Assembly: GCA_018902385.1 (NCBI GenBank)
Contig: JABSSW010000045.1
Location: 124,001-188,000 of the forward strand
Reading direction: 5' to 3'
Length of the DNA: 64,000 nt
DNA from: Physcia stellaris
Lineage: Eukaryota > Ascomycota > Lecanoromycetes > Caliciales > Physciaceae
Position numbers and translations under genes: made by a program. This document shows, one piece after another, positions 16,521 to 64,000 of this stretch. Positions within the stretch are counted from its first letter, which is position 1, and the number at the start of each line of letters is the position of its first letter. The notes under the pieces were generated by a model, which made no database searches, was not told where the DNA came from, and worked only from the letters and a program-made list of their open reading frames with translations.

Positions 16521-17460
16521 ACTTGAAGGTTGTTGCAGGGGCCAGGGGGAGGAGGATTAGTAACTTGGCATGAAAGGGGTTCGGCGGGTGTTCAAGCTCT
16601 CGACACTCAAAAATGTGTTTTGATTTCTGGGGTGGATTGGAAGTACAAAGCTGACTGCGAAGGGATACAAGCATGGGCTCTTACTTATAGACCTGGAACG
16701 GTCGAGTCGTTACTTGTGGCGGATGGTAGAAAAGATTGACAACCCTGCAAGAAGACCCTGATTTCCCCTATCAGATGGCCAAAGCTTCCATTTAGTGTGA
16801 ACAGGGTCGAAAAAGCTCCTAGTGTTCGGAATGTAAGTAGCGGTGGCAGGCACCATTCGAGGAGCTTGCTGATGATGAAATAGTCGATTCGGCCCGTGTT
16901 GCAAACCCTTCAAAACCCCTCAGGCCAGAATCGGAGGTTTGCATGTGAAACCCCACCTCGTCTTAAACTTGGATGAGGATGAAAAAAATGGCGCAGGAAT
17001 TAACGGGCACCAACCATCGATCCGATCTTTGTCTTCTCTGATAAGACTAATACTGCCAGGCAGATAAAAAATCGGCATGCAGGAGTATGGCGGTCGGAGT
17101 TTTTGGTAAATCTGCCAGGTCTGAGATGATACCATTTCGGAGCGAGAGTGGTGAACAAGTAGCCTGGTGGTATCCCATGGTCTGGCATGGTGCGACTCTG
17201 CCTCACATGTACCGCCACTGATACACCCAGACAAGACACATACCCGTCTCCGGCACAAAGCATATGAAGATGGCATGAGGACGACATGAAAAAAACATGT
17301 GGAAGACATCATTTCTGATTCCGTCCCAGGTCGGGTAATCGCAGATCTGTCGATGTAACCTAAAAAATAGCACGACTTACTACCAGATCATGGGATGGAC
17401 GACAAGGAACGAAGGACTTCTTCGGGAGAGACCGTGCCGCAAACAACAAAATAGCTCAAA
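16521..17460. other. Intergenic region containing a MITE-like element
   Basis: Promoter side of the HAD gene, then a spacer with no supported gene. A 227-bp inverted-repeat element (17171-17397) occupies its distal part and ends about 60 bp from the stop of the next minus-strand gene. Confidence 0.6.
17171..17397. mobile_element. MITE-like element, copy A
   Basis: About 227 bp with terminal inverted repeats: left TATCCCATGGTCTGG, right CCAGATCATGGGAT. The inner repeat also continues (ACTTACTACCAG on the right side). The same layout, ends and internal blocks recur at 30369-30600. It has no coding capacity. A TA at the left edge and TG at the right would fit a decayed TA target duplication, as in Tc1/mariner-type non-autonomous elements. 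The family name is inferred only from the ends. Confidence 0.6.
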
Positions 17461-18533
17461 TCAATCTCTCTTTGACCTTTTCCTCTGCATAGCTTCGTTC
17501 ATTAGGAGAGCAACGTCTTCCGTGTCTGTTCCTCGCTGTCGCGACTCGGTCTTCTCCTTGCCCAATTCTGTGTCCTCTGCCACCATACGGAATATCTCAC
17601 TGGCGCCGCTGAACATGTCGCTATCAAAGCCGCCTTCTTCGTGGAAAGTATCTGCAATCTCTTCCATTTCCCTTACCCATCGGTAGGCTTTGGGCGGCAT
17701 GCCTACAAGACCTTTCTCTGCCAGCTGGCCTGTCCTTGGTGAGTACTCTACCAGATGCTGCTGTAACTCTGGCAGGACCCCGAGCTTCTGGGCAGTGGTA
17801 AAGGACTGGATAGCAATCGCTGTGAACCCTTTCGTCATGGACGCAAAACACATCTTCAGTCCGCTGGCTGAGCCTACGGAAGAAGAGACTTGCTTTATAT
17901 TGAGGGTGTCAATGAAAGCAGTAGGAGAGACAGGTGCGTCTTGCAATTTATGCGGACCTGAAATAACAAGGCTAGGCCGACACCAAGAACCGTCTTTACT
18001 TGAAGGGGCCTGAGGGGCTGGCCCAATTATCTTTAAGATAGTTAGAATTTTAAGTCCAAGAGATCTATGGTATCGACACTTACACCGCCATCCAGGAACC
18101 GGATTGAGGTTGACTCAAACAAGCTTGACATCTCTCTCGCCGAGCGCGGGCTGATGGCATTAAGGTCAAGATAGTATAATGGCGAAGACCTATTGATTCC
18201 AGCAGAAGCAGCGACAATCCGTTTCGCTGTGGCCAAGGCATCACGGGGAGGTACAATAGATAGGATGTAATCCGAGCGAGTGACAAGGTCTTGGTCTGAG
18301 GGCACGAGCTCTATCGAAGCTGAGGCTGCTCGCCGCCGGGTCGATTCGCTAGCTAAATTCAGTGAATGTCTACAAGATTCTCCAGATTCTTCTTGCACAG
18401 GTGAGGATTACCTTCGACCTTCAAGACTGGTGACGGCTTGGAAGTTGAAGGCGTCGAGCAGCTTCGCAACCCCCAAGCCCATCTCCCCAATGGAAAGTAT
18501 GCCAACTGTAGCCAATCTTTTCGTCGTTGACAT
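17461..18533 (-). CDS. 6-phosphogluconate dehydrogenase-like protein with DUF1932 domain
   Basis: Three exons: 18412-18533, 18084-18348 and 17461-18030, with 63- and 53-nt introns; 318 aa. The N-terminus has a Rossmann nucleotide-binding loop (VGILSIGEMGLGVAKLL), followed by an NAD-binding domain (SDYILSIVPPRDALATAKRI, YYLDLNAISPRSA, FLDGGIIGPAP). The C-terminal half (ASGLKMCFASMTKGFTAIAI onward) matches the DUF1932 domain, which follows NAD-binding domains in this 6PGDH/hydroxyisobutyrate dehydrogenase-like family. The Lys of KMCFASMTKG occupies the usual catalytic region. The substrate is unknown. It is probably a cytosolic NAD(P)-dependent hydroxyacid dehydrogenase, by family membership only. 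Confidence 0.85.
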
Positions 18534-19457
18534 TTTGACGTTCGGTACGTTGTAAATGATACGATTGTGAGCCACTAAATTCCAGGTCTCCTAATGGTCA
18601 GTCCAGATATGGCGTGCTTTACTGCAGAGGCTATTACAGCCAATCATCCACACATCGACCAAGGTTACCCGTCTTTGGAGTTTCATACCGATATGAATGA
18701 AGCTTTGAAATTGATGTTCTTCCCAAGTCGGGCTATCGTTTGTTCATTTTCCTTTTTATTTTGTGAAGTTCAAGGTGAGTTCGTCAGATTCTGCGCGCTG
18801 AGCTAGGCGTAATTAACGATCCTATCTTCAAAACGCCTTACCTATGAAGCATCTCAAATAAGAGCGGAGAGGCACGTACCTATCTACCTGCTTTGCGGCG
18901 GAATCTGCTTCGGCCTCACATAATGGAGGGTGGTGTTTAAGAGGTAAGTACTTTGGCTGAATGCACAGCAGTCAACTGGACTTACCACCTCAGCCGTAAA
19001 GGCACCCTGAATTGATAGCTTGTTGGAAGCAATGTTGGAAGCTCTACAATTGACAATCATTGAGCGATTAGCAGATTCTATAATTGAGTGGACTGTAATC
19101 CGTAGTCGACAGAGCCGTGTGGGAAAATTACACCGTATTTAAGAGGTCTCACTCCTCTATGACACCCCTAATACCCTACCTACAAAGACGGGACGCAGCC
19201 CGAGTAAAGCGAGCTTTATTCTCTTCAAATCTTGACGAGCTTTCATCCTACGGGACATCTAGAAAGAAGGTGTCAGGTAAGCTGGCTGCTCTCTACGAAA
19301 AAGACGTAACAACATTGTCGGCTCTGGAAGATGCTGAGGTGGAGAATACTGCCTTGCTCTGCTATGATACATGCTCTTTGTCGCGAATGCCTATAACTTC
19401 TAAATTCTTATTAGTACAAAGTCCTCGTTCGGTCTGACTGTCTGAACATATATACCC
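18534..19457. other. Intergenic region
   Basis: Promoter of the dehydrogenase gene, then a spacer to the prohibitin stop. The segment 18600-18745 weakly resembles the internal blocks of the MITE-like family (ACCCGTCTTTGG, CCCAAGTCGGGC) but lacks clear ends. The open frame at 19117-19437 is not supported. Confidence 0.4.
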
Positions 19458-20391
19458 TTATGATCTTAAGCCCAGTAGCAGACCTGCCCCTTTACCACCT
19501 TCTTTGCCTCCTTCTCCGCCACCAGGCAGATACGTGACGTTGGGATTGTTCGCCAACGTCTGGGCAATCTCCCGACTTGCCTCGATCCTTCTGATCATTA
19601 TGAGCCCATCGCCCGCCTTTGCTACCGCCTTACTGATCGTTTCAGCACTTTCTGCCTCGCCCTCAGCTCGGATGACGTTGGCCTGTCGCTCCTGCTCTGC
19701 CTTCTCGACAATGAATCGTGATCGTTCAGCATCTTGTTGGGCGATCTGCTTTTGCTCTACGGCACGCGTGAACTCTTTTCCAAACGTCATGTGCGTTATG
19801 GAAACATCCTCGAGTGCAATATTAAATTCCGAAGCGCGCTTCAATAAATCGGTCCTGATCCGTGCTGAAACGGATTCTCGCTGTGTGATAAGCTCTGCGG
19901 CGTCAAATTGTGCGACGATCGCTTTGAGAACCTCGTTGCCGATAGACGGAAGAACTCGCTCATCGTAGTCAAGGCCAAGGGACTAGAAGGAAATGTCAAT
20001 GCTTTCAGAGTACATAGGCTCCCGCAGCAGACCAACCATCTGGCTGCAAATGAGGGAAGGAATTTACCTGGTAGATTTTGGGCAGCTGCTGGACCTCTGG
20101 ACGATGTAAGACACGCAGGGTTAAGCTGACCATTTGCAGGTCTTTGCTCCCAGTTGTTGTAGAAATGTTGCGAGGTTTGGTGCGAACGTCATAAATGATG
20201 GACTTCTGTAGCCATGGGATGAGAAAATGAGTTCCCTCATTCACAACGGTCTCCTTGACACCAGAAAGACGATCGAATATGACTGCCCGTGTGCCACCCT
20301 TGACGTCGTATATTGAAGCTTGAGCGAAAGCAAAGCCGATGGATAGCGGAACAGCGTAGCGGTACACGGCCTGGAGTCCACTCGCGGCCAT
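19458..20391 (-). CDS. phb1: Prohibitin 1
   Basis: Two exons: 20068-20391 and 19458-19982, 85-nt intron, 282 aa, the usual PHB1 length. The N-terminal hydrophobic anchor ([16 protein letters not shown]) is followed by the SPFH/PHB domain with [31 protein letters not shown] and [18 protein letters not shown]. The C-terminal coiled coil runs [20 protein letters not shown] onward, and the end is Gly-rich. Prohibitin 1 assembles with prohibitin 2 into large rings in the mitochondrial inner membrane that support protein quality control and cristae. The ATG at 20391 is chosen because [12 protein letters not shown] matches the family start; an in-frame upstream Met at 20427 is unlikely. The gene is head to head with qcr8 across 236 bp. 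Confidence 0.97.
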
Positions 20392-20627
20392 TGTTAGGAG
20401 TGGAAAAGGCCCGATGTCTTTAATCAATCGGTTGACGTTGGATGTCTAGGAGTCTCGCAGAGAAAAGTCGGGTCTAGATGAATCAGCTCCCCATTAGGCT
20501 TAGCGTTGGTACTGTATTATGTGAAACAATTCGAGAACGGTGATTGGCTTTTGTATCTTAGGACTTTCAACTCTCAACCACCATCCCCAAAACCCCTCTC
20601 AAAGAAAACACTGCGGACTCCAAAAGT
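20392..20627. promoter_or_regulatory. Bidirectional promoter of phb1 and qcr8
   Basis: 236 bp separate the two start codons, which diverge. A CCAAT box in reverse orientation (GATTGG, core 20543-20547) lies 80 bp before qcr8. CCAAT boxes bind the HAP complex, which controls respiratory genes in fungi. The layout is seen; co-regulation is inferred. Confidence 0.6.
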
Positions 20628-21293
20628 ATGGCGGGTGGCAGCGAACCTTTGGATACCAAGCATGGCCAGTGAGTTGCTCATTCCCACTTCAGCCGCCCTT
20701 TCTGCTCGCGTTGACTCCACGCCCTTGCCCAAGCATACATGTGGTTACTAGGCATATGCTAACATGTCTTACAGATACCTTGGTCCCTGGGGAAATCTAG
20801 GTAAGGCTCACGGCTCTATTCAAATCACTTGCTTCCTGAGACGAAGCAAATTGTCAAGAATAAACAGGTTCACAAGATCTGTCGCATCGACCCTGGATAA
20901 ACCATCAGCCATGGTACATACCCAGCTGACAGAAATCGACTCCAGGCTCTCAGACCCAGAAAGGGATTACCACCTACGCTATCTCAGCCAATCGACAACG
21001 ACCACTTGCAGGCACAGCAAACGCAGCGATCTTCAACAGCTGGCGAAGATTTAGGGCACAGGCGTTATACTGGATCCCTCCTTTCGCCATCGCTTATTTG
21101 ACAATGAACTGGGCGATTGAAAAGTACGTATAGTATACCCGCCTGATAGGTGCTCCTGGCCATCAGAGATTCTAGACTTAGACCGTTATGCTTAAATCCG
21201 CCTAGGAATGAATACCTGAACTCGAAAACAGGTCGCATTCACGACGCTGAGGAGTCAGACGCTGCTCGTCAAGGAGGATCCGTGCGTGGCTAG
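20628..21293 (+). CDS. qcr8: Cytochrome bc1 complex subunit 8 (ubiquinone-binding, QCR8)
   Basis: Small subunit of respiratory complex III in the mitochondrial inner membrane. Exons: 20628-20668, 20775-20800 (26 nt), 20946-21124, 21206-21293. Splicing gives MAGGSEPLDTKHGQYLGPWG, NLGSQTQKGITTYAISANRQ, RPLAGTANAAIFNSWRRF, one membrane span (YWIPPFAIAYLTMNWAIEK) and NEYLNSKTGRIHDAEES, 110 aa in all. The order and length fit fungal QCR8. The exon 3/4 junction is one base out of phase: the run of four A at 21121-21124 would need three A for AA-G to encode the expected Lys before NEYLNS. This is either a sequence error or a real defect. The gene diverges from phb1. Confidence 0.9.
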
Positions 21294-21646
21294 AATCTCC
21301 ATTTTTAAATTTACCATTGAATTCCTTTAAGTGCTGCTCGGATGGACAGCAATTCTGTGTATCGGTAGCGAGGAATTGTACATAGTTTTACATCATGCTC
21401 GGAAATGCCAAAGCTTTCTCTGCCAGAAAGCACTGCTAGATTTAACTGCAAACCCTTTCACTCGTCTCGCACACCTAGTCAATGCCAAGAACACCGCTGC
21501 TACGTACGATGTGAGCACAGTGCTCGGTTTAGACAGGCCTACAAAGAGTATCCGGCGGGCCCGAAACCCTAACCCTAGAATAGTATAATCTGAGTCGGCT
21601 CAGTAGAATTTTGTTGAAATTAAGAGAGCTACTACCCTTTGCCACA
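21294..21646. other. Intergenic region with NHP2 promoter
   Basis: No gene. It ends in the NHP2 promoter with a double telobox at 21564-21577. Confidence 0.5.
21564..21577. promoter_or_regulatory. Double telobox upstream of NHP2
   Basis: AAACCCTAACCCTA, two telomere-type repeat units, lies about 70 bp before the NHP2 start codon. Teloboxes are associated with ribosomal protein and snoRNP gene promoters, so the placement is apt. Confidence 0.55.
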
Positions 21647-22414
21647 ATGGCCAAAGAAAAGAGCGCAGACCGGGAGCAACGCAAGAAGGACAAGAAGGCA
21701 TCGAAAGAAAAGCGTTCGGAAGTAGACGGGGTTCACAAGAGCAAAAAAGACAAGAAGGAGAAAAAGGAGAAAAACGTTGCAGCCGAAGCGGAGGACATTG
21801 AGGTCACCACCAAATTGCTGAACGCCTTAGAAGAGGAAAAGCCGGGGACTGTAGCAGTCAAAGAGAATGGAGACATCCAGCTGAAAGTCAAGAGCGCGCC
21901 GCTCTTGGGCGCACTGGTCCCGTTCGCGAACCCATTGGCAGATGAGAAAGCAGCGAAGAAGGTGCTGAAGACCGTGAAAAAAGGTACATCACAAATTGCC
22001 TTATAAATGGTTAAGCTGCTGACGAGTATACTAGCTGCCAAAAACAAAGCATTGAAGCGCGGTGTCAAGGAAGTAGTTAAAGCTCTCCGGAAATCTCCAA
22101 CCGCCGTAGCGGGCGACCTTCCTTTCGCCGTCGTTGTTGTTGCCGCTGATATCTCGCCCATGGACGTCATATCACACATACCTGTACTCTGCGAAGACCA
22201 TAGCATCCCGTACATCTTTGTCACATCCCGAACCGAGTTAGGTGCTGCGGGAAGTACGAAGCGGCCGACAAGCGTAACCATGATCAACAGGGAGAAAGGT
22301 GGGAAGAAGAAGGACGTGGCGAAAGAGAAAGAGGAAGGAGAGGAAGACTGGAACGATGTTTATAAGGATCTTGTCAAGGTTGTCGCTAAGGCGTCCAAAG
22401 ATGTTCGAATATGA
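21647..22414 (+). CDS. nhp2: H/ACA ribonucleoprotein core subunit Nhp2
   Basis: Two exons: 21647-21983 and 22035-22414, 51-nt intron, 238 aa. The N-terminal ~60 residues are a Lys-rich charged tail (KKDKKEKKEKN) longer than in yeast. The C-terminal half is an L7Ae/Nhp2 RNA-binding domain: AAKNKALKRGVKEVVKALRK, AVVVVAADISPMDVISHIPV, CEDHSIPYIFVTSRTELG. Nhp2 binds H/ACA snoRNAs with Cbf5, Nop10 and Gar1 in the nucleolus, guiding rRNA pseudouridylation. ATG 21647 starts MAKEKSADREQRK. The double telobox just upstream fits a ribosome-biogenesis gene. A short basic and acidic extension follows the domain (REKGGKKKDVAKEKEEGEED). Confidence 0.95.
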
Positions 22415-22839
22415 GCAAACATGTATCTGGCACAATCGAGGCGTTCAAGGTCAATGAAAAGTTTGGAAGGTACTTTGCTGTTACAACCTGTAAGCACTAC
22501 TATCAATTACCCTCGAGGCTAGCACTGTCTTAGCTAATATTGGTGATGAAGGGCTGTAAATATTCTATGTTCCCTGCCTAAGATACCCCTGGTGATCTAA
22601 GGTTCGCATTCACAGTATGCGGCATACACGTCTCGCCTTAGTAACTGTGAATGATAGATGTACACAGCTAAGGTCCCAAGTTCTAACATCAAAGCATGCA
22701 TACCGGATAAGTATGCTTCTGTCTAAGTGAATGCCAAAGGAAAATCGCAAGTCGACCACCAGACAACCGTCTGGATTGAACAACCCATCATGTCCTTTTC
22801 AAAAGCATATATCTTCTTCATAGACCGGTTGCCGGAGCA
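22415..22839. other. Intergenic region between convergent genes
   Basis: 3' UTR space. A perfect 10-bp inverted repeat, CATTCACAGT (22607-22616) and ACTGTGAATG (22644-22653), with a 27-nt loop could form a hairpin near the NHP2 3' end. Nothing else seen. Confidence 0.4.
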
Positions 22840-23338
22840 TTAGGTCCTTGCATCTTTCGGTAGTCCTCCTAGATTGTCGTGACCTTCGCGTCCAACACCA
22901 CTGGGTGCGGCTGTGTTCTTCGAAAACTCCGCACCGTCTGTCCTAACATTGCTGTCGCTCGTCGCTGGCTCTCTCAATGCGTCGTTCCCATAAGACATGC
23001 CTTCCTCCAAACGTCCCGAGCCTACGTTGACCTTACTCTCATCAGACGAATTCCAGTCCGAGGCCACCGGCGGCTGATCTGGGAGAGGTAGACCCGCTTG
23101 TCGTTCGTCGATCAACTCTTTCTTTGACTTCTCCTGGTTTTGATCGACGATTGACTTTGAGCAGATGTTAGCCTGGATGGTTGGATGAAATTATATGCCC
23201 AGTCAGTGATGGGCCTTAACGCACCTTCATTTGAGATGGCTCTGACGAGGATGGAACGTGACCGCCACCCTTATGAGATACCTTACTCTCCGGCTTGCGG
23301 ATGTCCTCTCGAGTGGTGTGGAAGGTTGAGTCGGACAT
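22840..23338 (-). CDS. Small hydrophilic conserved fungal protein
   Basis: Two exons: 23225-23338 and 22840-23172, 52-nt intron, 148 aa. Very hydrophilic, with no membrane segment or globular core visible: MSDSTFHTTREDIRKPESK, then a conserved block VDQNQEKSKKELIDERQAG and LPLPDQPPVASDWNSSDE, then KVNVGSGRLEEG. I regard it as a conserved Pezizomycotina protein of unknown function. Composition resembles LEA-like or hydrophilin proteins. It diverges from a second hydrophilic gene at 23730, and a perfect CRE (TGACGTCA) at 23460 lies between them, which suggests shared AtfA-type stress control. That link is inference. Confidence 0.8.
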
Positions 23339-23729
23339 TGTGATTGTACTCCCGAAGTTGGATTGGTGATTCAGGTCACAGATCAATTATATGTGCCTCT
23401 TGATGACAATGTGTTTAGAGAAGAGTTAAAGCGGAAAAAGGGAAGACGTTCGTACAAGGTGACGTCAGGGCTTGAGGCTTTAAGATCCCACCCCATTCTC
23501 TTGTGCCTGAGCAATCGGCTTTGGAGAATGCCATAGTGGGGCAATTTGGCGGGGCTGGATTACATCACTGAAGCACAATCGTGTTTCAACGTCAATGCTG
23601 AAATATTAATGACTTTTCGTCTCAATTCACACTGAATTGCTCAAAGTCGGCTCCCACTTAACAATCGACTTCAATACATCACCAGACCATCACCGATATT
23701 AATCTTCAACGTCTGTGAATTAGCTCGCT
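23339..23729. promoter_or_regulatory. Bidirectional promoter of two hydrophilic genes, with a CRE
   Basis: 391 bp between diverging start codons. It holds TGACGTCA at 23460-23467, the palindromic site of ATF/CREB bZIP factors such as fungal AtfA/Atf1. Confidence 0.5.
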
Positions 23730-24846
23730 ATGAATCAACAAGGCACACCAATTGGATCGACCAATCAAGGAATGAAGTAGGTATATCTTTTTGATATGGG
23801 ACTCGTTGCTTATATCCTCAATCTCACTCATCGCAGTAATTGCTGAAACTGATGTTGTCTAGGGTGAGATTTGCTATAGCTTCGTTGCAGCGCATGGAGA
23901 TCATGAGTTTTCGGGATATTCAGTAACACAACATCGCAGAATACCTCTGACCCTGAGAAATATACCAATCCGGTGAAGGAGGGATCAGGCGCTGTAGCTT
24001 CGGACTGTACGTGCTTTCGGAGCCTTTTTCTGGCCTTTCCTAGCTTCTCGATGGGATGTTCAGAGTAGTCGCCGGAGCGATTAGCCCAAGTGACTGTCTC
24101 GTAGCTGAACCCTTGCACTGGTGGACAAGCTGACTTTGCGTTCACGAATAGCTCTTGCTGCAGAATCAGTTAATTCGGGGGGCGCATTTGGAGTCAACCG
24201 TGACGCAGGACCCCTTTCCGTCTCTGGCAGCTCCTCGACCTTCAACAATACGGATACCTCCGGTGCTACCACACTTCCGCCTGCTCCGGACGCCACTGAG
24301 CGAGGAGCCAAAACAGCATATGAAGAGACTTCTGACGAGGCAAAAGGACCAGGCGGCCAAAAGTATCCCGAAGGTCTTGGTGGACAGGGTGTGTTCGATG
24401 GCCAGCACAATGCTGACGGTTACGCCGGTGGATCTTCAGATGCGAAGCAGAGTTTGTCTAATCAGACCAATGGCGACAATGTGTATCAAGCATCAGGCAT
24501 CCGCGGAGGAGGCACTGATGATGTGACTGAGGAAGGTAACAAGGGTGGATCAGATACTAGTGCCGCCGGTACTGCTCCGTCATACGTATCAAGTGTCGCG
24601 TCAGATCCTGCCCAAACTGGCAAACCAAAAGGGAAGAACATCACCGAGGGAGGTTTTGACAGTGACCCAAGCAACAATGCTAGCTTCAACAATGAGATTG
24701 GAACGGAGAATGATCCAGGTCGGGTAGCCGAGCAGACTCTCCAAACTGCTGCCCAGAGTGCAAGTGGTGGCACAGGACCGAACCAAAAGCTGGGTGACAG
24801 CGACAACTCGCAATATGACGTCCTGAAGTCGGATCAAAGTGCATAA
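23730..24846 (+). CDS. Hydrophilic, Gly/Ser/Asn-rich conserved fungal protein
   Basis: Three exons: 23730-23776, 23924-24006 and 24152-24846; about 274 aa. Phases match: N-NTTSQ at the first junction and ASDS-LAAES at the second. The sequence is rich in Gly, Ser, Asn, Asp and Thr, with segments such as GGAFGVNRDAGPLSVSG, STFNNTDTSGATTLPPAPD and GGQKYPEGLGGQGVFDG. No membrane span or known catalytic motif. Composition suggests a disordered, LEA-like or storage protein. The first intron is 147 nt, longer than its neighbours, so the first exon is the least certain part. It shares a CRE-containing promoter with the gene at 22840-23338, so both may be expressed together. Confidence 0.72.
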
Positions 24847-25057
24847 AGCGGGGTTTCTATTCGATGTTTCTGGTCCAGAAAATAGATTGGAATGTGCGAC
24901 AGAGGTAGCAAGTATTGCTAAATCATAAGACACTTCAGTGCCACAAGAAGAATTGACATTGGCATGGTGAAATGATGTTCCGGGGTTGTTGTGGAACTCC
25001 GGTCCTCACTTTGAATGGTCCAGCGATGACAAGGGGCTGGATAGTATCGTAATCAGA

Positions 25058-26287
25058 TCAGGTTCTCCTATACAAATGCATCTGATACCTCATGTTCTCA
25101 AGGTCAATGGGATAGTTCAAGTCCGGCAATCGGAACCATTTACTATTATTCTCTTCGAGTTTCTCCCATTGCTTCTTTCCATTGCTTCCAACAGCTGCGT
25201 TCAACAAGGTGTGGTCCAAGAGCCACAGCATGGGATATCTTTTCTGTGTCTCTGTATCCTGAACCCTTTCATCCCTTCCTAGATTAATGGTGGAATAGCT
25301 GCCTGGACTGTCAACTACTAGAAGCAAGGAACCTGGCTGGATCAATTCGGTCATTGACAAGAGAAAATTCGTCGTTCCGCTCATAGAAGTGCTGTACAGC
25401 TCGTTCAATGTGAACATCAGAGTGACAAGAGCGCAGTCCCGAAATAACGATCCCATCTGCGAGACTTCCATCTTTAAAAGATCTTGCTGCGCGAAGCTGA
25501 CTCGAAATAAATCGTGATCGACCATTGTTGTTGTTCTCGCGGCTTCGTATGAAGCGTATTCTGGCTCGGCTGGGTTATTAGTGAGACCGGCATGCAATCG
25601 CGCGATGACAGAGGACCAATCGGCTACATCGACCAATGCCACATCAAGAGATAACGGTCTTTGATGCGAGTCAGCACTTGCAGGACAGTCGCCGTTGGTA
25701 GAGCGGCCAAGGCCACAAAGAAGCCCTGCAAGCGCAACTAGCTCAGCACCTGCTCCACCTCCCAAGCTGACAACTTTGACTCGCTGAGTAGATTCTTCCT
25801 TCCGAGACAAAGATAGCTTATCTTGAGATGCTGGGACATCGTCAGTGATAGTTCCGCTGGTACCTTCTGGCTTGTCAGAGAGGGCACGATATGTTTTTCT
25901 TTGGTGCGATTGCAGGTGACCGTGAACCTCATCCAAACGGTTGAAGATTTCAAGGTATGCTAAGGCTCTACTTGGACTCCATCTGATTACATACGCGTCA
26001 AGGGATGTCTGATTACCAAAAGCCTGGGCAAAGTCTCTATTGAAGAGATGCTTCTTGACATCTTGTATCACCTGACCGAGGGAATCGTTGAAGTGCTCCT
26101 CGAAAGTAATTTTGAAGATATCGACGAGTGATTGTTGGAGTTGGAGAGGTACTCCTGTTGATAGTTGATGGAGGCGATTCTGAGAGACGTGCTGGCCCGT
26201 TCCTCTATTAGATCTATGCACATCCTCGTTTTTGCTGGCTTTGTGGCTCTTGCTTTGCTTGATCTTACCATTGCTGGCAGGTGCCAT
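25058..26287 (-). CDS. bmt6: 25S rRNA (uridine-N3)-methyltransferase Bmt6
   Basis: Single exon, 409 aa. The N-terminus is basic (KIKQSKSHKASKNED), as in nucleolar proteins. The SAM-binding loop VVSLGGGAGAELVALAGLL lies at about residues 172-190. The acidic strand VALVDVADWSSVIARL follows, then CALVTLMFTLNELYSTSM and LIQPGSLLLVVDSPGSYS, the pattern of Bmt6 and its filamentous relatives. Yeast Bmt6 methylates one uridine of 25S rRNA in the large ribosomal subunit. The start is the first ATG. It diverges from pob3 across a 519-bp shared promoter with a CRE at 26359. The exact target base is inferred from the family. Confidence 0.9.
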   Translation of the reverse strand: MAPASNGKIKQSKSHKASKNEDVHRSNRGTGQHVSQNRLHQLSTGVPLQLQQSLVDIFKITFEEHFNDSLGQVIQDVKKHLFNRDFAQAFGNQTSLDAYVIRWSPSRALAYLEIFNRLDEVHGHLQSHQRKTYRALSDKPEGTSGTITDDVPASQDKLSLSRKEESTQRVKVVSLGGGAGAELVALAGLLCGLGRSTNGDCPASADSHQRPLSLDVALVDVADWSSVIARLHAGLTNNPAEPEYASYEAARTTTMVDHDLFRVSFAQQDLLKMEVSQMGSLFRDCALVTLMFTLNELYSTSMSGTTNFLLSMTELIQPGSLLLVVDSPGSYSTINLGRDERVQDTETQKRYPMLWLLDHTLLNAAVGSNGKKQWEKLEENNSKWFRLPDLNYPIDLENMRYQMHLYRRT

Positions 26288-26806
26288 AGGGCAAAAGGAA
26301 AAATGTACGATACGATATGAAAGAAGCTATCACTTTATGAGATACCCGGTAGCTCTGTTGACGTCAAAATTGTTTGAAGAAAGAGGCAGCGAAAAGTGAA
26401 CGTAATTCCACAGGGTACACTAGCCTCTAGAGCTGTGCTGTAAAGAAATCAACGTCTAACTTCAAGCGGGCGCGCGGCAAGGACATTGGACTTATGGCCT
26501 ATAAGGAAGTCAGCTTAACCCTGGAGTATCTTTCTGTCTCCATATGGGTAGCTGTTATGGCCAAGGCCCGGAGCGCCTGTGAGAGGGATGGCTGGATGGG
26601 CAAGCTGAGAAAATTAAGGAGACGTGATAATATTATTATGGAAAGGACACAAACTTAACCGCGCGTCAAAGATAAGTTGCTCGGCTCGCTCAAACCCGCG
26701 TTGTACGCGATTATTCGTGCCAATATTCCAGAGGTCTCCACTTCTTGCATATCTCACCTCATCTTGAAGCACGTGCCTCTACCACGATCGAAAGCTCGTC
26801 ACAGAA
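26288..26806. promoter_or_regulatory. Shared promoter region of bmt6 and pob3
   Basis: 519 bp between diverging starts, no gene. A perfect TGACGTCA is at 26359-26366, 72 bp before the bmt6 ATG. Confidence 0.5.
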
Positions 26807-28855
26807 ATGGAGTCTTTTGAGGGCATACATCTTGACCTCTCGAAACTGCCTGGAAAATGCAGGATAGCAGAGAGTGGACTTGGCTGGAAACCTTCAGGGG
26901 GTGGTGATACTTTCACTCTCGACGGAAGTGATATTGACGGTGCCCAATGGAGTCGTGCGGCCAGAGGCTACGAGTTGAAGATACTCTCACGTAAATTGGG
27001 TGTCATACAGTTTGATGGATTTGATCAAGAAGTGAGAAGTCGCGCCCCTAGGATCTAGAAAAACATAGTTGACACGAGCAGGATGTCGATCGTGTGGGCA
27101 AAGTATTCAAACTTTTCTACGGTATAAATTTGGAGAACAAAGAGCATGCGCTTCGTGGCTGGAATTGGGGCAAAGCCGAGTTCGGAAAAGCAGAACTCGC
27201 GTTCAACGTCCAAAACCGACCGGCTTTCGAGATACCTTATTCGGAGATATTGAATACTAATCTTGCAGGAAAGAACGAGGTGGCCGTCGAACTTTCGTTA
27301 CCGGTCGGCGGAAATGAGACGGGGACAAACGGTCACCTTGGTGGAGCTCGAAGTAAAGGGCGCAAAGCCGGCGCCGCAAGAGACCAATTGGTCGAGATGA
27401 GATTTTATGTACCGGGAACTGCAACAAAGAAAGAACAAGACGAAGAAGGGGAAGATAAAAGTGTTGATGGCTCAGACGCCGAAGAGCACAATGCTGCAAA
27501 TCTGTTCTACGAAACCTTGAAGGACAAGGCAGAGATTGGTCAAGTCGCCGGAGATACCATTGCGACATTCCTGGATGTACTGCATCTCACACCGAGGCTC
27601 GTCCACCAAAAAGCAACAAACTACTGCGGCGAGATTGCTAACGACCTTCTAGAGGTCGCTTCGATGTCGACATGTATGAGACTTCTTTTCGATTGCGTGG
27701 TAAAACCTACGACTACAAAATCCCATACGACCACATCAAAAAATTCATGTTGCTACCGAAACCGGACGACCTTCACACTTTGATTACTGTTGGCTTAGAC
27801 CCTCCACTCAGGCAAGGTCAAACACAGTATCCTTTCCTAGTCATGCAATTCAAGCGGGAGGAAGAAGTCCTTATAGATCTCAATATGACTGAGTAAATGC
27901 TCTTACAGCGTGTCTTCTGAAATTTGCTAATCTTTATCAGTGAGCTGCTTGAAAAGTACAAAGGCAAGTTAGTTGCACATTATGAGCAACCAGCACATTC
28001 GGTTGTTGCCATTCTGTTCCGCGGCCTGGCCGGAAAGAGGGTTGTGACTCCTTCTAAAGATTTCGTAAGGTACGTATTTCGTTTGGTCGCCTTTTGACAA
28101 GCATAAGACAGCGGCCTTCTTTCTACATAGCACTCTGTCGCGAGGCTTGCGCTGACGAGGTCTAGCCACCATCAACAATCCGGTGTTAAGTGTAGCATCA
28201 AAGCCAACGAAGGCCACTTGTTCTGCTTGGACAAGAGCTTTATGTTCGTACCAAAGCCTGCAACGTACATAGCTTTCGAGAAGGTTGCTGTCATCACCAT
28301 GTCCAGAGTAGGCGGTGCTGTGTCAGCTAGCCGGACCTTCGATATCAGCGTTACTTTGAAGGAAGGTCTAGGAGAGCATCAATTTAGCAACATTAACCGG
28401 TAAGTCGTGTTTGGTGGAAGTACTGACTCTGCTGACAAGGTTACTAGTGAGGAGCAGAAACCCCTGGAAGACTTCTTCGAAGCCAAAGGTTTAAGGACGA
28501 AGAATGAGATGACCGAAGATGTAAGAGGCTTCTTGATCACGTTTCAATTGCAATTACTAAAACTCTACAGTCCGGTGCCCTGATTGCGGCGGCGCTCAAG
28601 GACGTAGATATGGCATCCTCGGATGAAGAAGTTGTTGCGGCTCGAGCCGATCGTGGTTCAGCAGACGAAGATGAGGAGAGCGTTGATGAAGACTTTAGGA
28701 CTGATTCTGAATCGGACGTCGCCGAAGAATATGACTCTGCGCATGAGAGCAGTGGATCAGATGCAGAAATGGCCGACGCCGACGGTGAAGCCGACGGACC
28801 GCCGAATCCCCGTGCTGATGAGCGGCCAAAGAAAAAGGCGAAGACCTCGAAATAG
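26807..28855 (+). CDS. pob3: FACT complex subunit Pob3 (SSRP1-like)
   Basis: Seven exons: 26807-27031, 27082-27596, 27653-27892, 27941-28069, 28166-28399, 28448-28520, 28571-28855; 566 aa, the normal length. N-terminal Pob3 domain (FEGIHLDLSKLPGKCRIAES), then the SSRP1 PH-like domain (HLTPRGRFDVDMYETSFRLR), then the Rtt106-like PH domain (SHHQQSGVKCSIKANEG, AVITMSRVGGAVSASRTFDI), ending in a very acidic tail and a basic KKKAKTSK signal. With Spt16 it forms FACT, a histone chaperone for transcription and replication. Intron 2 (27597-27652) needs a GC donor: CCG AG then GCTCGT; a good GCTAAC branch point is at 27637. All other introns are GT..AG. Confidence 0.96.
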
Positions 28856-29177
28856 ATTCAAAATTAATGCATCACAGGCGTTTATTTGCACCTCTTGGAG
28901 TGGGGACTTGGCGTGGTTCAAGGCATCTGAAATGGGACGAGAGTGCACGATATTCTGGAGATACCCACCAAATAGTATATTCTGAGGATTGGCACATTTT
29001 TAGTGGCCATGCGATTTCATAGCCATAACTCAGTATGAAGGATTCCAAGTGCAGCATATCACCAAAACTCCCAGTTTTCCACCCTTGCTCCATACCGTAG
29101 CCCCGCCTTCCGAGTTGTGGTGGATATAACGCCTACTAAGTGGTATCTTCCAAAACGCCAAGGTTCGTTCGAAACCC
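28856..29177. other. Convergent 3' region of pob3 and nnf1
   Basis: 322 bp of spacer; no gene or repeat seen. Confidence 0.5.
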
Positions 29178-29950
29178 TTACAGCTTCATTTCCCTTTCCC
29201 TCCCCAGATCTCTCAATTCTTCCTCCATCTCCCCCAAATCCTTCCGCATATCTTCACCTTCCACCACGCCATCCATAGCCTCGTTCGCGGCTTCTAGATC
29301 TCTCACCACGGTCTCCAGCCCTTCCACTAGTCTCTCAACCTCCTCTCGTTGTCCTTGTAATCCCTGGGCCAAACCCTCATTCTCGGCTTGGATTTGCTTC
29401 AATTCAGCCTGCAGCTCGATCTCCGTCTCAGCGAGGTAAGGCGCCAGATGCGCCAGATAGAGCCGCGTCGGTGGAAGGGTATGCGGCCTGCAATCACTCA
29501 CAGCGGTCAGCCCGTGATGCTCGCATAGTCCATCCTTCCCCTCCCCCAAACCCCCCCGGCAACCCACCGCAGCAAAAAAAAAAGAAAAACTCACGCCTCC
29601 CCCGGCCCCTCCAACACACCCGTCTCTCTCCTCCTTCTCGCCTCCGTCACCAGTCTCTCCAGCTCATTCAAGCCCCTCACCACATCCCGCTCCTGCATGA
29701 TGTCCTCGAACTCCCGCTTCGAGCTCTCGTCGATCTTGGCTGTGATCTGTCCGTGCACGCTCTTCAATATACCTGACGCTTTCGCTGCAGACGTTGGGAA
29801 ACAGGCGCTGAAGGCTGGGTAGGACATTGTTTTCAGGGTGCGTGAGAGGGCGCTCGTGAAGGCGGCGGTGAGAGCGGTTGCGCGGGGGCCGGGGGCGAGG
29901 GGAACTGGAGGGGCGGCGACGGGGGAAGGAGAGCGCGATTGAGGTGCCAT
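29178..29950 (-). CDS. nnf1: Kinetochore protein Nnf1 (MIND/MIS12 complex)
   Basis: Two exons: 29595-29950 and 29178-29487, intron of 107 nt with long homopolymers (A9 and T-rich on the other strand). 221 aa. The N-terminal Pro-rich lead is followed by the Nnf1 signature: ALTAAFTSALSRTLKTMSYP, FSACFPTSAAKAS, FEDIMQERDVVRGLNELERL. The second exon is a long coiled coil (ETEIELQAELKQIQAENEGL onward). Nnf1 joins Mtw1, Dsn1 and Nsl1 in the complex linking centromeric chromatin to the microtubule-binding Ndc80 complex. Junction GEA-PHTLPPTRL is in phase. A telobox-like TTTTTAGGGTTG lies at 30106, about 150 bp upstream of the start. Confidence 0.93.
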
Positions 29951-30755
29951 TGTATGTTTGTAGGTTCAGTGCTTTTGGATGCAGCGATTCAGTGACAGGG
30001 CGACATGGGGGTGAGAGAGAATTGGCAATGGTGTTTGTTTAATTGGGGATTGTTTGGAGAACGCGCCTGAGGCGCCGCGATGCCGCGATGCCGAGGTATC
30101 TTAGGTTTTTAGGGTTGTCGTAGGTTTGCCCCTGAGCCCCTTTTTGCATTGGACGACAAGCTTCAAGGAATAGAGATACTATCTGTATCTGCATGACGCT
30201 TTTTGCAGGCGTGTTATGTAGACCACATCCCGAAATTAGAAGCACACTGGGCAGCAAGATACACTCGTCAATCGTGGAGGATATCCTCGACCGAGCGGCT
30301 GTTGGAGAATGGAACATGTACCGAAAGCTGCATGTTTCAGAGCCAACTCTAGGAATGAATGGCGATTGTATCCCATGCTCTGGTGTGGTGCTAATTTTGC
30401 CTCTCATGCATCACCACTAACACGCTCGGATGCAACAAGGCGTGTACCCATTCTTGGCACAAAGTGAATGGAATATAAGATGAAGAAGACATCATCTTCA
30501 GCTTTCGTTCCAAGTCGGGCATCCGCTGGTCTGTCGGGGGATATCATAGGAAAGATGTGTCACATATAATTAGCACCACTTACTACCAGGCCATGGGATA
30601 CAACGATCAGTCTCTGGGAAATCAGGACGACGAAATATCTAAATAGAATGGCATCCTTCAAAAATCTCAAGATCGGAGTCTCTTAAACCAGTAAGCCCGC
30701 CTTCTGACTGTTATGTTAACTCTAGCAATCATCTCAGCAGCGATACCAGATAGAA
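29951..30755. other. Intergenic region with nnf1 promoter and a MITE-like element
   Basis: The promoter of nnf1 holds a single telobox-type TTTTTAGGGTTG (30106-30117). The MITE-like copy B occupies 30369-30600. The rest shows nothing. Confidence 0.55.
30369..30600. mobile_element. MITE-like element, copy B
   Basis: 232 bp with terminal inverted repeats that start TATCCCATGCTCTGG and end CCAGGCCATGGGATA. The inverted match continues inward with a small gap: GTGGTGCT on the left and AGCACCAC on the right. TA flanks both ends. It shares ends, spacing and internal blocks (GACATCAT, AAGTCGGGC, ACTTACTACCAGG) with copy A at 17171-17397, in the same orientation. No coding capacity. Confidence 0.65.
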
Positions 30756-32973
30756 CTATCCAGAGAGTCTTTCTATGGCTTGGGGCCACAGTAGATATTC
30801 GTCCTGCATATCCCTTACTACTTCATGGGTCAATTCCTTATATTTCTCTTTCACCGAGCTGAACTTCTCTGGACTACCGGATAGCTTTACCACTGCTGCT
30901 TCCTTTATCAAGGCTTCACGCTCTTCCTCTAATGCACCCGAGATGTGTCCTAGCTTCGCCGCACCTCGATAGAAGGTTTCCGCATTCTTGATCAACGTGG
31001 GAGCACTTCTTACTGCGAGCTCGTAAGGAAGTGGAGCTTTGCCGAGGCCGTAACGTATGAGCTCACAATCGCCTCGCCTTAGATGGCTCCTTGGGAGATT
31101 CTCTGCTTGGGAGAACTTGGTTGCTGCCGTTAGGTCCTCGAGAGCCTTGGTGGCATGTCTCCAACAGAGATCATGGAGCTGCGACACTTCTGATTCAGGA
31201 GCACTAGCGTTCATTTGGAGTAGGGTAAGGACGCTGGTAATGAAAGCAATCTCCGCGTCTGCTCGATCGCACAAGCTCTGCTCATCAAGCCGCGAAGCAA
31301 GACAGTCGGCGAAAACGGTGTTGAGCTCACGCTCGTAGGTTAGTATATCAATAGTCCCAACATGGAAACTTGCGTCTGCGAACGCGATCCTAAATTTGGC
31401 TCTCATCAAACTGATTTCCTCCAGTCTTCCAGAATTCCTTGAGACGAGTTCAATCCTAGGCTGCAGCATCTCAAGGTAATATTCTTCAATCCACCCAATG
31501 TTTGTCTTACTGAGATTACTTGAGATGCTGCATATGGTGATTAATGCGCCCATTTGAGCCAACAACGTTTCAAGCAGGGAGTTGTTCGTTACGGGCTCCT
31601 CGATGGAAACCCAGACTTCCTCCTCTTCAACGGCATTCTGCGGAGAACATTGGCTCCGCTCGGGCATTGCATTGGGCACCTCCCATGCACCTTGGGAAGC
31701 GCTTGCGCCTACACCTTCAGTCGGCGTGAGCTGTTCTTCTTGTAGGGAAAGGCATCGCTGGAAAAGTTCTAGGGCTTCCTGCAAAAGGCGAAGACTGCCA
31801 TCCAAAGTTGCTTCATCTGAACTCCTCTCATTAGACGCTTCCGCGATACTCGTTAAGACCTGAGCCGTATTACTATAACACATCAACCAAGGCCATTGAT
31901 CAAAGCACGAGGAAGCTTACAATAAGAGGTCTGCGTTGTATTGATTCACAGTGAGAGCATATCTGTGGGATTCAAGTGCAACATTCAACAAGTCGACCAA
32001 GGAATAGGGAAGGTGATCAAGAAGTTTTGGCTGCTGTGCTAAATCATACTGTAGCCTGGCCCTGGAATGCTCCGTTAGCCGACACTTTTGAGCAACCCCA
32101 AGACAGGACGAGTATCTAGGGATAAAACTCACTTGTTGTACGCGAGATCAAAGTTTCTTGGGAACAGTCGGAGGCCGTCCTCGTATTTGTCCAGGGCTCG
32201 GACGAAGAAGCGAGTGGACTTGGCCGCATCGCCAGCCCGCCACTTCTCGCCCGCCTCTTCGTTGTTGACCCCCGCTAATGTTCGTTAGCTATACGAGCCT
32301 TTAACACACGTATTGTGACTATTACGCGAGAAGGGAAGAGAGACGAGATTATGCCTCCGCAAAGGTGACCTTAACTCAGACCAAGCGGGTCTCTGTAGCC
32401 AACAGCCGTGGACGCTATTCCCCACGGTGGCTCTCTGTTGGTTTATCAAGGGATAATTCAAGGCAATGGGGATAGCAAAGTGCTTTGACTGGGTACATGG
32501 CCAAAACGACGTATGCATCGGCGTGAGAAAATTGGATTATCGATGAGACTATGCCCACGGCTTTATCCAGAATTTCCGTAGCACTCTAACAGACTAAATG
32601 TATGCTTCTCAGACAGACTTTGCTTCATAGCCTCACAAAGCACTATTGGAGCACAACGTGATTTTGAGGCGATCCGAAAGAGTCCGCAGTTCTCGAGGCA
32701 AAGGAGAGTAACTAGGAAAAGCAAACACAGGGTGGTGAGAAGCGTGGAGGACTTCCACGTGCGCCACTGCCACTTCGGGACGCTGCTAGACGAAAGACTA
32801 ACGGAAGGATGAACAGGCCCCCATCACCTCGCTCATCACCTTTGAAATGAATATATCGATGAGATGATCTACCTACCGGCCAAGTAGTCGTCTCCCGTTG
32901 CTGGTGATTCTTGCTTGCCCTTCCTCTTATCAAGATTTTTGGCGCTCTTCAACAGCTGCTTTGATCTAGGCAT
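30756..32973 (-). CDS. TPR-like helical protein, conserved fungal family
   Basis: Four exons: 32877-32973, 32133-32274, 31921-32061 and 30756-31872; 498 aa. All junctions are in phase, for example YLAAGVNNEEAGEKWRAGDA and YNKARLQYDLAQQPKLLDHL. The N-terminus is basic (MPRSKQLLKSAKNLDKRKGK). A TPR-like pair of helices follows (RFFVRALDKYEDGLRLFPRN, then FDLAYNKARLQY), and then mixed helices through the C-terminus (LLQEALELFQRCLSLQEEQL). This looks like a tetratricopeptide scaffold, and the partner is unknown. The first intron is 602 nt, far longer than all others in the window; I see no RNA gene in it. I do not recognise a named orthologue. Confidence 0.8.
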
Positions 32974-55510: not shown

Positions 55511-56887
55511 TCAGGACTCTATCTTCCGAGCCCACCAAGCGCCTACTTCAAGACATTCACCGTTCAATAACCCATCATGCTCCAGTACGTCATTATTGAA
55601 GCCAGACCACCATCTGTCCCACTCGTCTTGCGTCTTCCCACTCTGTTCTACTAACAAGGGTTCCAGGCTTTCGACAAGCCCAAGAAATGTGATCAGAGCA
55701 GTTCGCCTTAGCGAAGTTTGCTCTGGCGTCAAAGGTCTGGATTTCCTTGTCGTTTCTGTCTCAACCAAGGGCTTCGAGCTACTTTTCCCACGACCGCCCG
55801 TTTTTGGCGCGGGGCTACTGTCCACGCATTCCTCCCGTTCCCACCGTATCTCGGAGAGTGGTATGGCAACTCTCCGGCTACCAACGCTACCGTAAATATC
55901 AGGATCGCTCGAAAACGTCAAGCCCATGAGAGCACAAGGCGTAGCGGTGCAGTCAAGTTCGTCTATTGCCTTCTTGGCCCATTCATTGTAATCCTTGACA
56001 TACTTATTTTGAGCCTTAGCAAACGGCGTACCAGGGGCTATATTGTAAGTAGCAGTAGCCTCTGCTTGTTCCACATCGTTACTAGACATCTTAAGACTCA
56101 TCGGAGGTGATGGAAGGAGAGCTCGCAGCAGAAGATCGGTCTCCCAAACTTCGATCACGCCTGATGGCTTCAAATACCGCATCAATTCCGTTAGTGGATC
56201 AAGCTCGACCCCGGCGGAGGCTGCACAGAATACTGTGTCTTTCACAAAGATATAGTCGAATTCACCTTCTTTGAATGGCCATGGTGTTTTCCGCATGTCA
56301 TGCTGGACAAACCTCCAATCCATGCCCTGCTTCTGGAAGTCTGGCGCCAAAGGTGCAATATCTAATCCCGTGAACGAGATGTTCGCATGGCCTTCTCGGC
56401 TGAAATAGTCGTGAACTATAGAGCTCCAAAGTGCCGAGCCGCAAGCTACCTCTAGGATTTTCTTTGGGGCTCGATCACGGAAAAATGGTGCACAGAAAGG
56501 TTTACCGAAAACCTGCATAAGCAGCATCGTCCGAAGACTTTGCCTGTGAAGCTCTACCAGGTCGACCGGTAACGGATATGAGACGCTCGGGTCCCGCAAG
56601 TAGCGTCTACCATACCTATAGGCGAAAGGTGTCGCCATGTAGTCCTCGCCTCCCGAGGGTCGCGTTTGCGAAGGCTTGGACTGATGGTTCACGGCAACTT
56701 CGTAGTGTACAACGGTGATCTTTCCGAACTCCGGGCCGTTACTACAAGTCTCATTGTTGAGTGTGTGCGACTTTGTCAGCGTGGGATCAACTTTGGTTTT
56801 TTGTGAGGTATGAGAGTTTGGGTTTGTGCTACGCTTCGTACGCTGATTGGGATTATCTTCCGTTTTTGCCAGGTGGCGTTGTGGCAT
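55511..56887 (-). CDS. SAM-dependent methyltransferase, conserved fungal family
   Basis: Single frame of 458 aa. Residues 1-85 are low-complexity, with no clear signal. From about 85: TPFAYRYGRRYLRDPSVSYP and LPVDLVELHRQSLRTMLLMQ, then SAM motif I ILEVACGSALWSSIVHDYF, an acidic strand FTGLDIAPLAPD, VQHDMRKTPWPFKEGEFDYI and YLKPSGVIEVWETDLLLRAL. This is a class I methyltransferase fold with a helical N-terminal lead, of a kind common in Pezizomycotina. The substrate is unknown. ATG 56887 is the first in frame; a shorter start at MATPFAYRYG (about residue 83) would still hold the whole domain. The 3' end lies only 10 bp from the LYR gene's stop on the opposite strand. Confidence 0.88.
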   Translation of the reverse strand: MPQRHLAKTEDNPNQRTKRSTNPNSHTSQKTKVDPTLTKSHTLNNETCSNGPEFGKITVVHYEVAVNHQSKPSQTRPSGGEDYMATPFAYRYGRRYLRDPSVSYPLPVDLVELHRQSLRTMLLMQVFGKPFCAPFFRDRAPKKILEVACGSALWSSIVHDYFSREGHANISFTGLDIAPLAPDFQKQGMDWRFVQHDMRKTPWPFKEGEFDYIFVKDTVFCAASAGVELDPLTELMRYLKPSGVIEVWETDLLLRALLPSPPMSLKMSSNDVEQAEATATYNIAPGTPFAKAQNKYVKDYNEWAKKAIDELDCTATPCALMGLTFSSDPDIYGSVGSRRVAIPLSEIRWEREECVDSSPAPKTGGRGKSSSKPLVETETTRKSRPLTPEQTSLRRTALITFLGLVESLEPLLVEQSGKTQDEWDRWWSGFNNDVLEHDGLLNGECLEVGAWWARKIES

Positions 56888-63300: not shown

Positions 63301-64000
63301 TCTGTGCGACTTCAGCTGGAAGACCTTCTTTAGGTTTCGTAAATCGCCCGCGTTCGTTGATGGCTGCCAGTTGTTCCACAATATAGTTGTGATACCTGTT
63401 CAGCATGATGAGCAGCACACCGCATCCTGGAGGGAATCCAAGTAATCTCTGCTCAGCGAAGCAGTCGGCCTTCAACTTCCCATCTTGGAATGTTCTGATC
63501 TGGTCTTGGTCTTCCTGCGTATCGCCGTACAGCGTCGACAGATCCAGGTATGATGACGTTTGAGAGATGCTGAAGTCTCTGTGGCTCGTTTGGAATAGGT
63601 CATGGATGATTAGGGAAGCCCAATAAAAGAAGACGCTTGAGACTTTATTGGGATGCGGAGTGAATTTATTACGTGCCATGACGCTATCGAAAATAAGCGA
63701 AGGATCGGGAAGGGCTCCTGGAGGAATGGTGACTGGGTTGACTGAGCGAGCATATGGGGTGTTGGCAGCTCCCAATAAAGGAAACATGGGATTCTAAACC
63801 GCTTAGCTTGACGAATCTATAGGCGGACCTAGAACTCACGTTGTACGAGCCATCGCCAGATCTATATGTATATGTATCGCCTGTAGAAATTTGAAGTCAG
63901 TATTGATAATACAGACTTTGGTTTCAGGTTCCAACTTGTCTCCAGGGCTTTTGTGTATCTTTCACACCCAGGACATGATTTTGGGACTTGAGAGACCGTC
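60361..64000 (-). CDS. ppoA: Psi-producing oxygenase (Ppo / linoleate diol synthase), N-terminus outside window
   Basis: Oxylipin enzyme of the PpoA type, runs off the right edge. Exons: an uncertain exon near 63968-64000, then 63840-63880, 62573-63793, 62113-62438, 61683-61967, 61217-61631, 60928-61167, 60678-60873 and 60361-60623, all in phase, at least 994 aa. The heme peroxidase domain has IIHDLF (distal His), NRYHNYI (proximal His) and EFNLAYRWHS (catalytic Tyr). The P450-like domain keeps EGIR and the Cys in DDCLGQD, so it should isomerise the hydroperoxide to a diol, unlike PpoC enzymes that lack this Cys. Products (psi factors) balance sexual and asexual sporulation. Two 54-nt introns (60874-60927 and 60624-60677) have no stop and could be retained in frame. 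The subclass (5,8- or 7,8-diol) is not decided. Confidence 0.95.

Follow-up and report, generated by a model that had tools for sequence, protein, structure and literature searches.

A 64,000-nucleotide stretch of the Physcia stellaris genome (GCA_018902385.1, contig JABSSW010000045.1, positions 124,001 to 188,000; C45:124001-188000 of a 43.97-Mb assembly in 147 contigs), referred to here as the window, carries two similar short elements with TA at their borders, and the question that it raises is what kind of mobile DNA these elements are and how they insert. An initial annotation had described them as two copies of a family resembling miniature inverted-repeat transposable elements (MITEs). 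Both copies are present there in the same orientation, with common ends and a common interior. Copy A (17173-17395, + strand) is an element of 223 bp running from TCCC to GGGA, counted without the flanking TA; it is preceded by TA (17171-17172) and followed by TG (17396-17397), a right flank one base off TA. Copy B (30371-30598, + strand) is an element of 228 bp with the same TCCC..GGGA ends, and its flanks are TA on either side (30369-30370 and 30599-30600), which under the reading proposed here are the halves of a TATA target. We consider it likely that the family to which both belong, termed Fam1, consists of MITEs that split TATA targets without duplicating them, and that its core, homologous to the cores of two further families, Fam2 and Fam3, has been exchanged between families.

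Copies, ends and flanks of Fam1

A search of each copy against the rest of the genome had been proposed as a check on the MITE assignment, with a lack of other copies counting against it. Many dispersed copies were found: 40 matches with copy A as the query (best 40 of 268 candidates scored) and 42 with copy B (best 40 of 149 candidates scored). The Fam1 left-end pattern, allowing at most two mismatches, occurs at 373 places in the genome (171 + 202), while the reversed pattern used as a control occurs at four (3 + 1). A hidden Markov model (HMM) made from 46 genomic copies, with A and B among its rows, scores copy B at 209.9 bits and copy A at 170.1 bits, against a top score of 8.1 over 30 Markov-simulated windows; the genome matches are independent of this model. 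The two window copies fall into different subgroups, copy A being A-like and copy B being B-like.

The ends of Fam1 are TCCCATGG, the element proper being TCCC..GGGA. In the majority sequence the terminal inverted repeat (TIR) reads ATCCCATGGTCTGGT, then a 5-bp indel, then GTGGTGCTA, in both arms; the inverted ends first described are therefore present, but they are longer than the roughly 15 bp given for them. The majority sequence aligns over its full length with its own reverse complement, and by its sequence Fam1 is best described as a long decayed palindrome. With inverted ends TCCCATGNYCTGG..CCAGRNCATGGGA at no more than two mismatches per end, 90 unique copies were identified in the retrieved loci, and their commonest lengths (228, 227, 206 and 226 bp) are short and nearly uniform. 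Only candidates that scored above 40 with the HMM and had at most two mismatches per end were retained, and this set of 90 favours intact ends because the loci were often chosen by an exact left-end match. At 223-228 bp the window copies are too short to encode a transposase, although small mechanically listed open reading frames (ORFs) overlap them. A full-text literature search with the Fam1 end strings returned only titles on unrelated subjects. Fam1 is an old, high-copy family of non-autonomous DNA transposons (MITEs), with hundreds of dispersed copies that have matching ends, and the first assignment of copies A and B to a MITE-like family is borne out by these genome-wide relatives.

TA is found on both sides of 67 of the 90 strict copies, on the left of 80 and on the right of 74. 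Outside this dinucleotide the two flanks show no repetition: among the 67 copies with TA on both sides, they match at the adjoining base in 24, at two successive bases in seven, at three in two and at four in none. Just outside the TA|TA target, G or C is favoured over A or T.

Target sites of Fam1

The flanks of full copies were joined and searched against the retrieved DNA, and uninterrupted paralogues came to light for three insertions of Fam1 (L033, L043 and L150), which occupy two sites. The L033 repeat has GAGATG-TATA-GGAG in its empty unit and GAGATG-TA[element]TA-GAAG in the filled one. At L043 (contig C3) and L150 (contig C18), Fam1 is nested in B-type Fam1 hosts, in both cases in the same central TATA; this position reads TATA in all three host paralogues shown for L043, and of 25 distinct host paralogues displayed for L150, 14 carry TA|TA at the junction. 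The best paralogue of each of these two nested insertions aligns without gaps when both TA are kept, and in all three insertions the best paralogue has TATA with no net gain of target sequence. Flank counts agree with this pattern. TATA stands beside at most five of the 67 TA/TA copies (two on the left, three on the right), which disfavours duplication of TA at TATA targets, as such duplication would leave TATA beside nearly all copies. The approach was checked on a Tc1-like element within a Fam2 copy: this site reads TTTCG-TA-[element]-TA-ACATG, compared by eye with a single TA in the uninterrupted L097, and so shows a true TA duplication.

Fam1 was mobile in the past, as its insertions with uninterrupted paralogues demonstrate, and there is good support for insertion at the midpoint of TATA, such that either side retains a TA and nothing is duplicated. 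TA at both Fam1 ends is probably not a target-site duplication. The TA reported at both ends of copy B is there, but in light of the uninterrupted paralogues it most likely represents the two halves of a TATA rather than a duplication. Mechanistically, a transposase supplied in trans would cut at TCCC..GGGA and join the ends at the centre of TATA. The central TATA of B-type Fam1 hosts received two independent insertions and may be a self-targeting hot spot. One further candidate empty site, a spanning match of L157 against L145, was rejected as only local similarity to the left end of the element itself. The L033 locus (C11:536358-537576) comprises three or more diverged units in tandem, with the Fam1 insertion in one of them.

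Stowaway and mimp-type MITEs of the Tc1-mariner group are small and have TIRs with TA on both sides. Fam1 resembles them in its small size, its TIRs and its TA flanks, but the empty sites found for it lack a TA duplication. TA on both ends is thus no proof of a mariner MITE where an empty site is lacking. The nearest precedent for the insertion mode is the Spy group of the PHIS superfamily, summarised as cut-and-paste elements that prefer AAATTT and make no target-site duplication (PMC4482050). Spy and Fam1 both use an AT-rich palindrome as a target and leave it unduplicated, whereas the target is AAA|TTT in Spy and TA|TA in Fam1. PHISTA elements, outlined as fungal PHIS elements of rust fungi (PMC12730594), are likewise fungal DNA transposons flanked by TA; unlike in Fam1, the TA of the rust-fungus elements is reported as a duplication. 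If the present reading is correct, TATA splitting without duplication would be a second target for cut-and-paste insertion of this kind.

A core common to three families

A third, degraded copy of the same family had been suspected at 18600-18745. The relic is real, and the surrounding window segment (18590-18760) is a dispersed repeat with 28 genome matches, itself included, whose relatives split into two families. It scores 13.6 bits with the Fam1 model (18642-18739), but the stretch 18626-18825 (+ strand) is 78% identical to positions 53-266 of the Fam2 query, and the relic is a degraded copy of Fam2, which has a core in common with Fam1 and other ends. Fam2 is a family of few copies, about 298 bp in length, with GGGAGCTTC ends (GGGAGCTTCTATACTGCAGACG); its query gave 27 matches from 19 candidates, some of which are core-only matches to Fam3. 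Inspection by eye gives a perfect 8-bp duplication in L098, agreement at seven of eight bases in L109/L104 and an exact but displaced duplication in L097, and Fam2 probably makes 8-bp target-site duplications. Fam3 is commonly about 216 bp long and has CACTCGCC ends (CACTCGCCCCGGACA; best 40 of 90 candidates scored), its end pattern occurring at 78 places with none for the control. An exact 3-bp duplication flanks 12 of 25 Fam3 copies, compared with 0.9 expected from cross-paired flanks (22 matches in 600). With its CACTCG ends, Fam3 agrees with CACTA/CMC elements in both the CACT-type ends and the 3-bp duplication. At L117, where Fam3 has inserted into Fam1, ACA borders the inserted copy at either end, against a single ACA in Fam1 copies. 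No distant inverted pair was seen by eye among the 78 Fam3 ends, and no search aimed at a CMC transposase was made.

Under these unlike ends, Fam1, Fam2 and Fam3 have a core of about 90 bp in common that is more conserved between the families than their TIRs. In the window it lies on the + strand at 17234-17342 in copy A (where an insertion is present between the arms), at 30437-30527 in copy B and at 18658-18740 in the Fam2 relic, where it extends from TACCCGTCTTTGG to CCCAAGTCGGG. The exact arms TACCCGTCTTTGG N40-70 CCCAAGTCGGG (24 bases, 13 + 11) have 20 matches against none for the control; these fall in Fam1-type sequences, Fam3-type sequences and the window relic, with near-equal spacing. 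Alignment of the Fam1 majority sequence with the Fam2/Fam3 core majority scores 200, while 3000 dinucleotide shuffles of Fam1 have a mean of 80.6 (sd 12.5) and a maximum of 140, so that none reaches the observed score. Across the 103 columns of a 50-core alignment, the majority sequences of Fam1 and Fam2/3 are identical at 49, both arms included, and the best alignment of the Fam2 and Fam3 majorities runs from TCARATCAAGG through CTATCGTT and is gapped and weak beyond. Conservation over 70 aligned TA/TA copies of Fam1, drawn from a looser-end set of 120 that includes some spurious copies, is 0.90 in the arms, 0.81 in the rest of the interior and 0.95 in the TIRs, and the excess in the arms is equalled by 56 of 5000 random window pairs. 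Since Fam1 and Fam3 are both quasi-palindromes, with antisense alignments scoring as high as or above sense, the orientation of the core is taken from the exact arms. The central 90 bp or so of Fam1 is homologous to the centre of Fam2 and Fam3, whose ends are unrelated.

No free core was found in a survey of the 28 genome matches to the window relic, and 13 core loci without two clear ends, read by eye, are each flanked on one side or both by sequence resembling Fam2 or Fam3. The core may be pictured as having passed between MITE families, most plausibly if the interior of another element were copied during faulty gap repair after excision. Its retention could reflect either a benefit of the two arms to transposition or hitch-hiking.

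It is normally the ends that define a MITE family, and different families usually have dissimilar interiors. Fam1, Fam2 and Fam3 reverse this pattern, having a common interior across families with seemingly different integration chemistry: duplications of 0, 3 and probably 8 bp, together with unrelated ends, probably reflect three kinds of integration. Whether the interior of a MITE aids its amplification becomes directly testable here. A bolder reading, which we regard as possible but doubtful, is that the core is a modular passenger among at least three transposon families with 0-, 3- and 8-bp integration reactions, kept because its arms give an advantage to any MITE that carries it (e.g. 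if they bound a host factor on which different transposases draw), and that Fam1 is a TATA-splitting group without target-site duplication that has not yet been described. The nearest precedent is found in the coral CMITEs of Acropora, summarised as families with different TIRs and a common 75-bp internal region of unknown origin, all flanked by TTAA and keeping a piggyBac-like end motif (CCYT ends) (PMC2872659). As in the three families examined here, a conserved core (75 bp there, about 90 bp here) lies under different TIRs, but the CMITEs are of one TTAA type, whereas in the present families the duplications measure 0, 3 and probably 8 bp and the ends are unrelated; Fam1 itself has TCCCATGG ends and TA flanks in place of the CMITE signature. 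The V domain, outlined as a conserved module common to short interspersed nuclear elements (SINEs) and the mariner-derived MITE MER6 (PMC6887750), is similarly common to otherwise unrelated mobile elements of which one is a MITE, although it joins SINEs to a MITE and the core joins three MITE families. No precedent for a core common to MITEs with different duplication lengths was recognized from titles and the beginnings of abstracts, which is weak evidence of absence.

Alternative explanations, transposases and neighbouring sequences

The simplest alternative is that Fam1 is an ordinary Tc1/mariner-type, Stowaway-like MITE with a TA target-site duplication. The TA on both sides of 67 of the 90 strict copies would be expected of such an element, and a Tc1-like element that does duplicate TA exists in the same genome, but in all three insertions the best paralogue is TATA with no net gain, and Fam1 ends bound none of the transposase loci read of the DDE_1 (10 of 10) or DDE_3 (5 of 23) type; we consider this explanation unlikely. 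For the core, it might instead be proposed that an older small transposon inserted independently into the ancestors of all three families. Its arms do resemble small TIRs in being imperfectly inverted copies of one another (TACCCGTCTTTGG / CCCAAGTCGGGTA), and insertion of one MITE into another occurs in this genome. Such nested insertion is nevertheless rather improbable given that no free core was seen among the 28 relic matches: by eye, the 13 loci read adjoin sequence resembling Fam2 or Fam3 on one flank or both, and the remaining matches extend beyond the core into Fam2 or Fam3.

Capture by MITEs of a structured RNA gene or a SINE-like unit is a very improbable origin for the core. A conserved interior under unlike ends does recall the V domain as summarised for MER6 (PMC6887750), but no Rfam match was found in the window at gathering scores, RNAalifold gave three pairs with almost no covariation for 50 cores, and the folding z-scores of four cores (-1.78, 0.09, -2.09 and -0.23) indicate weak folds. 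Least credible of all is convergence, or similarity arising from shared composition and palindromy. Both sequences are quasi-palindromic, and the antisense alignment of Fam1 with Fam3 is as high as the sense one, yet the shuffles fall short of the observed score in all 3000 cases, the exact collinear arms of 13 and 11 bases recur, almost equally spaced, in sequences of both the Fam1 and the Fam3 type with none for the control, and the family majorities agree at nearly half of the alignment columns (49 of 103).

Several observations weigh against our preferred reading of Fam1 as TATA-splitting MITEs with an exchanged core. Insertion without duplication is seen in only three insertions at two sites, and the comparisons are with paralogues rather than alleles; at L150, 11 of the 25 paralogues shown depart from exact TATA, and a genome search with 11 joined flanks matched only the copies themselves. 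No transposase bounded by Fam1 ends was found among the matches read (10 of 10 DDE_1, 5 of 23 DDE_3 and 6 of 11 DDE_Tnp_4). The Fam2 duplication was judged by eye from one exact, one seven-of-eight and one displaced case, with none in L110, and the sole empty site for Fam3 (L117) has 2-base gaps near the junction. Finally, consensus alignments of Fam1 with Fam3 score 186 antisense and 161 sense in one comparison and 148 and 144 in the other.

Transposase matches in the genome comprise 10 DDE_1, 23 DDE_3 and 11 DDE_Tnp_4, and 21 of these 44 were read. As partners for Fam1, the DDE_1 loci were rejected: in seven of the ten the long inverted repeats are of another kind or those of Fam1 are lacking, and at L094, the only DDE_1 locus with Fam1 ends, these belong to a separate MITE copy. 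No Fam1 ends were found at the DDE_3 loci L109 and L133-L136, nor in the approximately 3.4 kb examined at each of the DDE_Tnp_4 loci L177-L182. These six DDE_Tnp_4 loci, the only ones scanned for Fam2 and Fam3 ends, contain none. Two apparent distant pairs of Fam1 ends were also discarded, that at L043 being the nested pair and that at L007 including a weak end, of a kind expected by chance, which no element surrounds. A third apparent pair is at L176, a locus that contains neighbouring copies. The Tc1-like element at L109 (C22:377640-379400) is about 1.52 kb long, begins its TIR with CTACGTATCCAGCATG and lies at a TA inside a Fam2 copy; its DDE_3 match is free of stops in an 86-aa open frame, and it has a TA duplication and an empty paralogue (L097).

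G+C content is at most 0.311 over the central 1.2 kb in 16 of the 20 loci measured. In 10 AT-rich loci picked by hand (L088, L089, L091, L092 and L177-L182), CpC falls from 57.5 per kb in the window to 8.0 and CpT from 69.1 to 25.7, while CpA (67.8 to 64.7) and CpG (53.9 to 58.2) are nearly unchanged. Stops inside the DDE_1 and DDE_Tnp_4 matches comprise 73 TGA, eight TAA and no TAG. Classical repeat-induced point mutation (RIP) at CpA was expected in these dead transposases, but it is CpC and CpT that are lost with CpA nearly constant. The G+C content of Fam1 and Fam3 is 45-46%, that of Fam2 copies is 38-39% and that of L110 is 29%. A RIP-like process appears to have destroyed the larger elements while leaving Fam1 and Fam3 largely untouched, a loss that would explain the orphan MITEs.

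Both window copies lie near gene 3' ends, as had been proposed, with genes here represented by mechanically listed ORFs rather than gene models. Copy A is about 65 bp beyond the end of the ORF at 17461-17946 (minus strand), which has a DUF1932 domain, and copy B is about 157 bp beyond the end of the ORF at 30756-31886 (minus strand; no Pfam match). The DUF1932 ORF thus has a Fam1 copy past its end and the Fam2 relic further upstream (window 17171-18825). The genes of the window would suit a filamentous fungus. Elsewhere in the window, ORFs at 62501-63787 and 55511-56887 carry animal haem peroxidase and methyltransferase domains.

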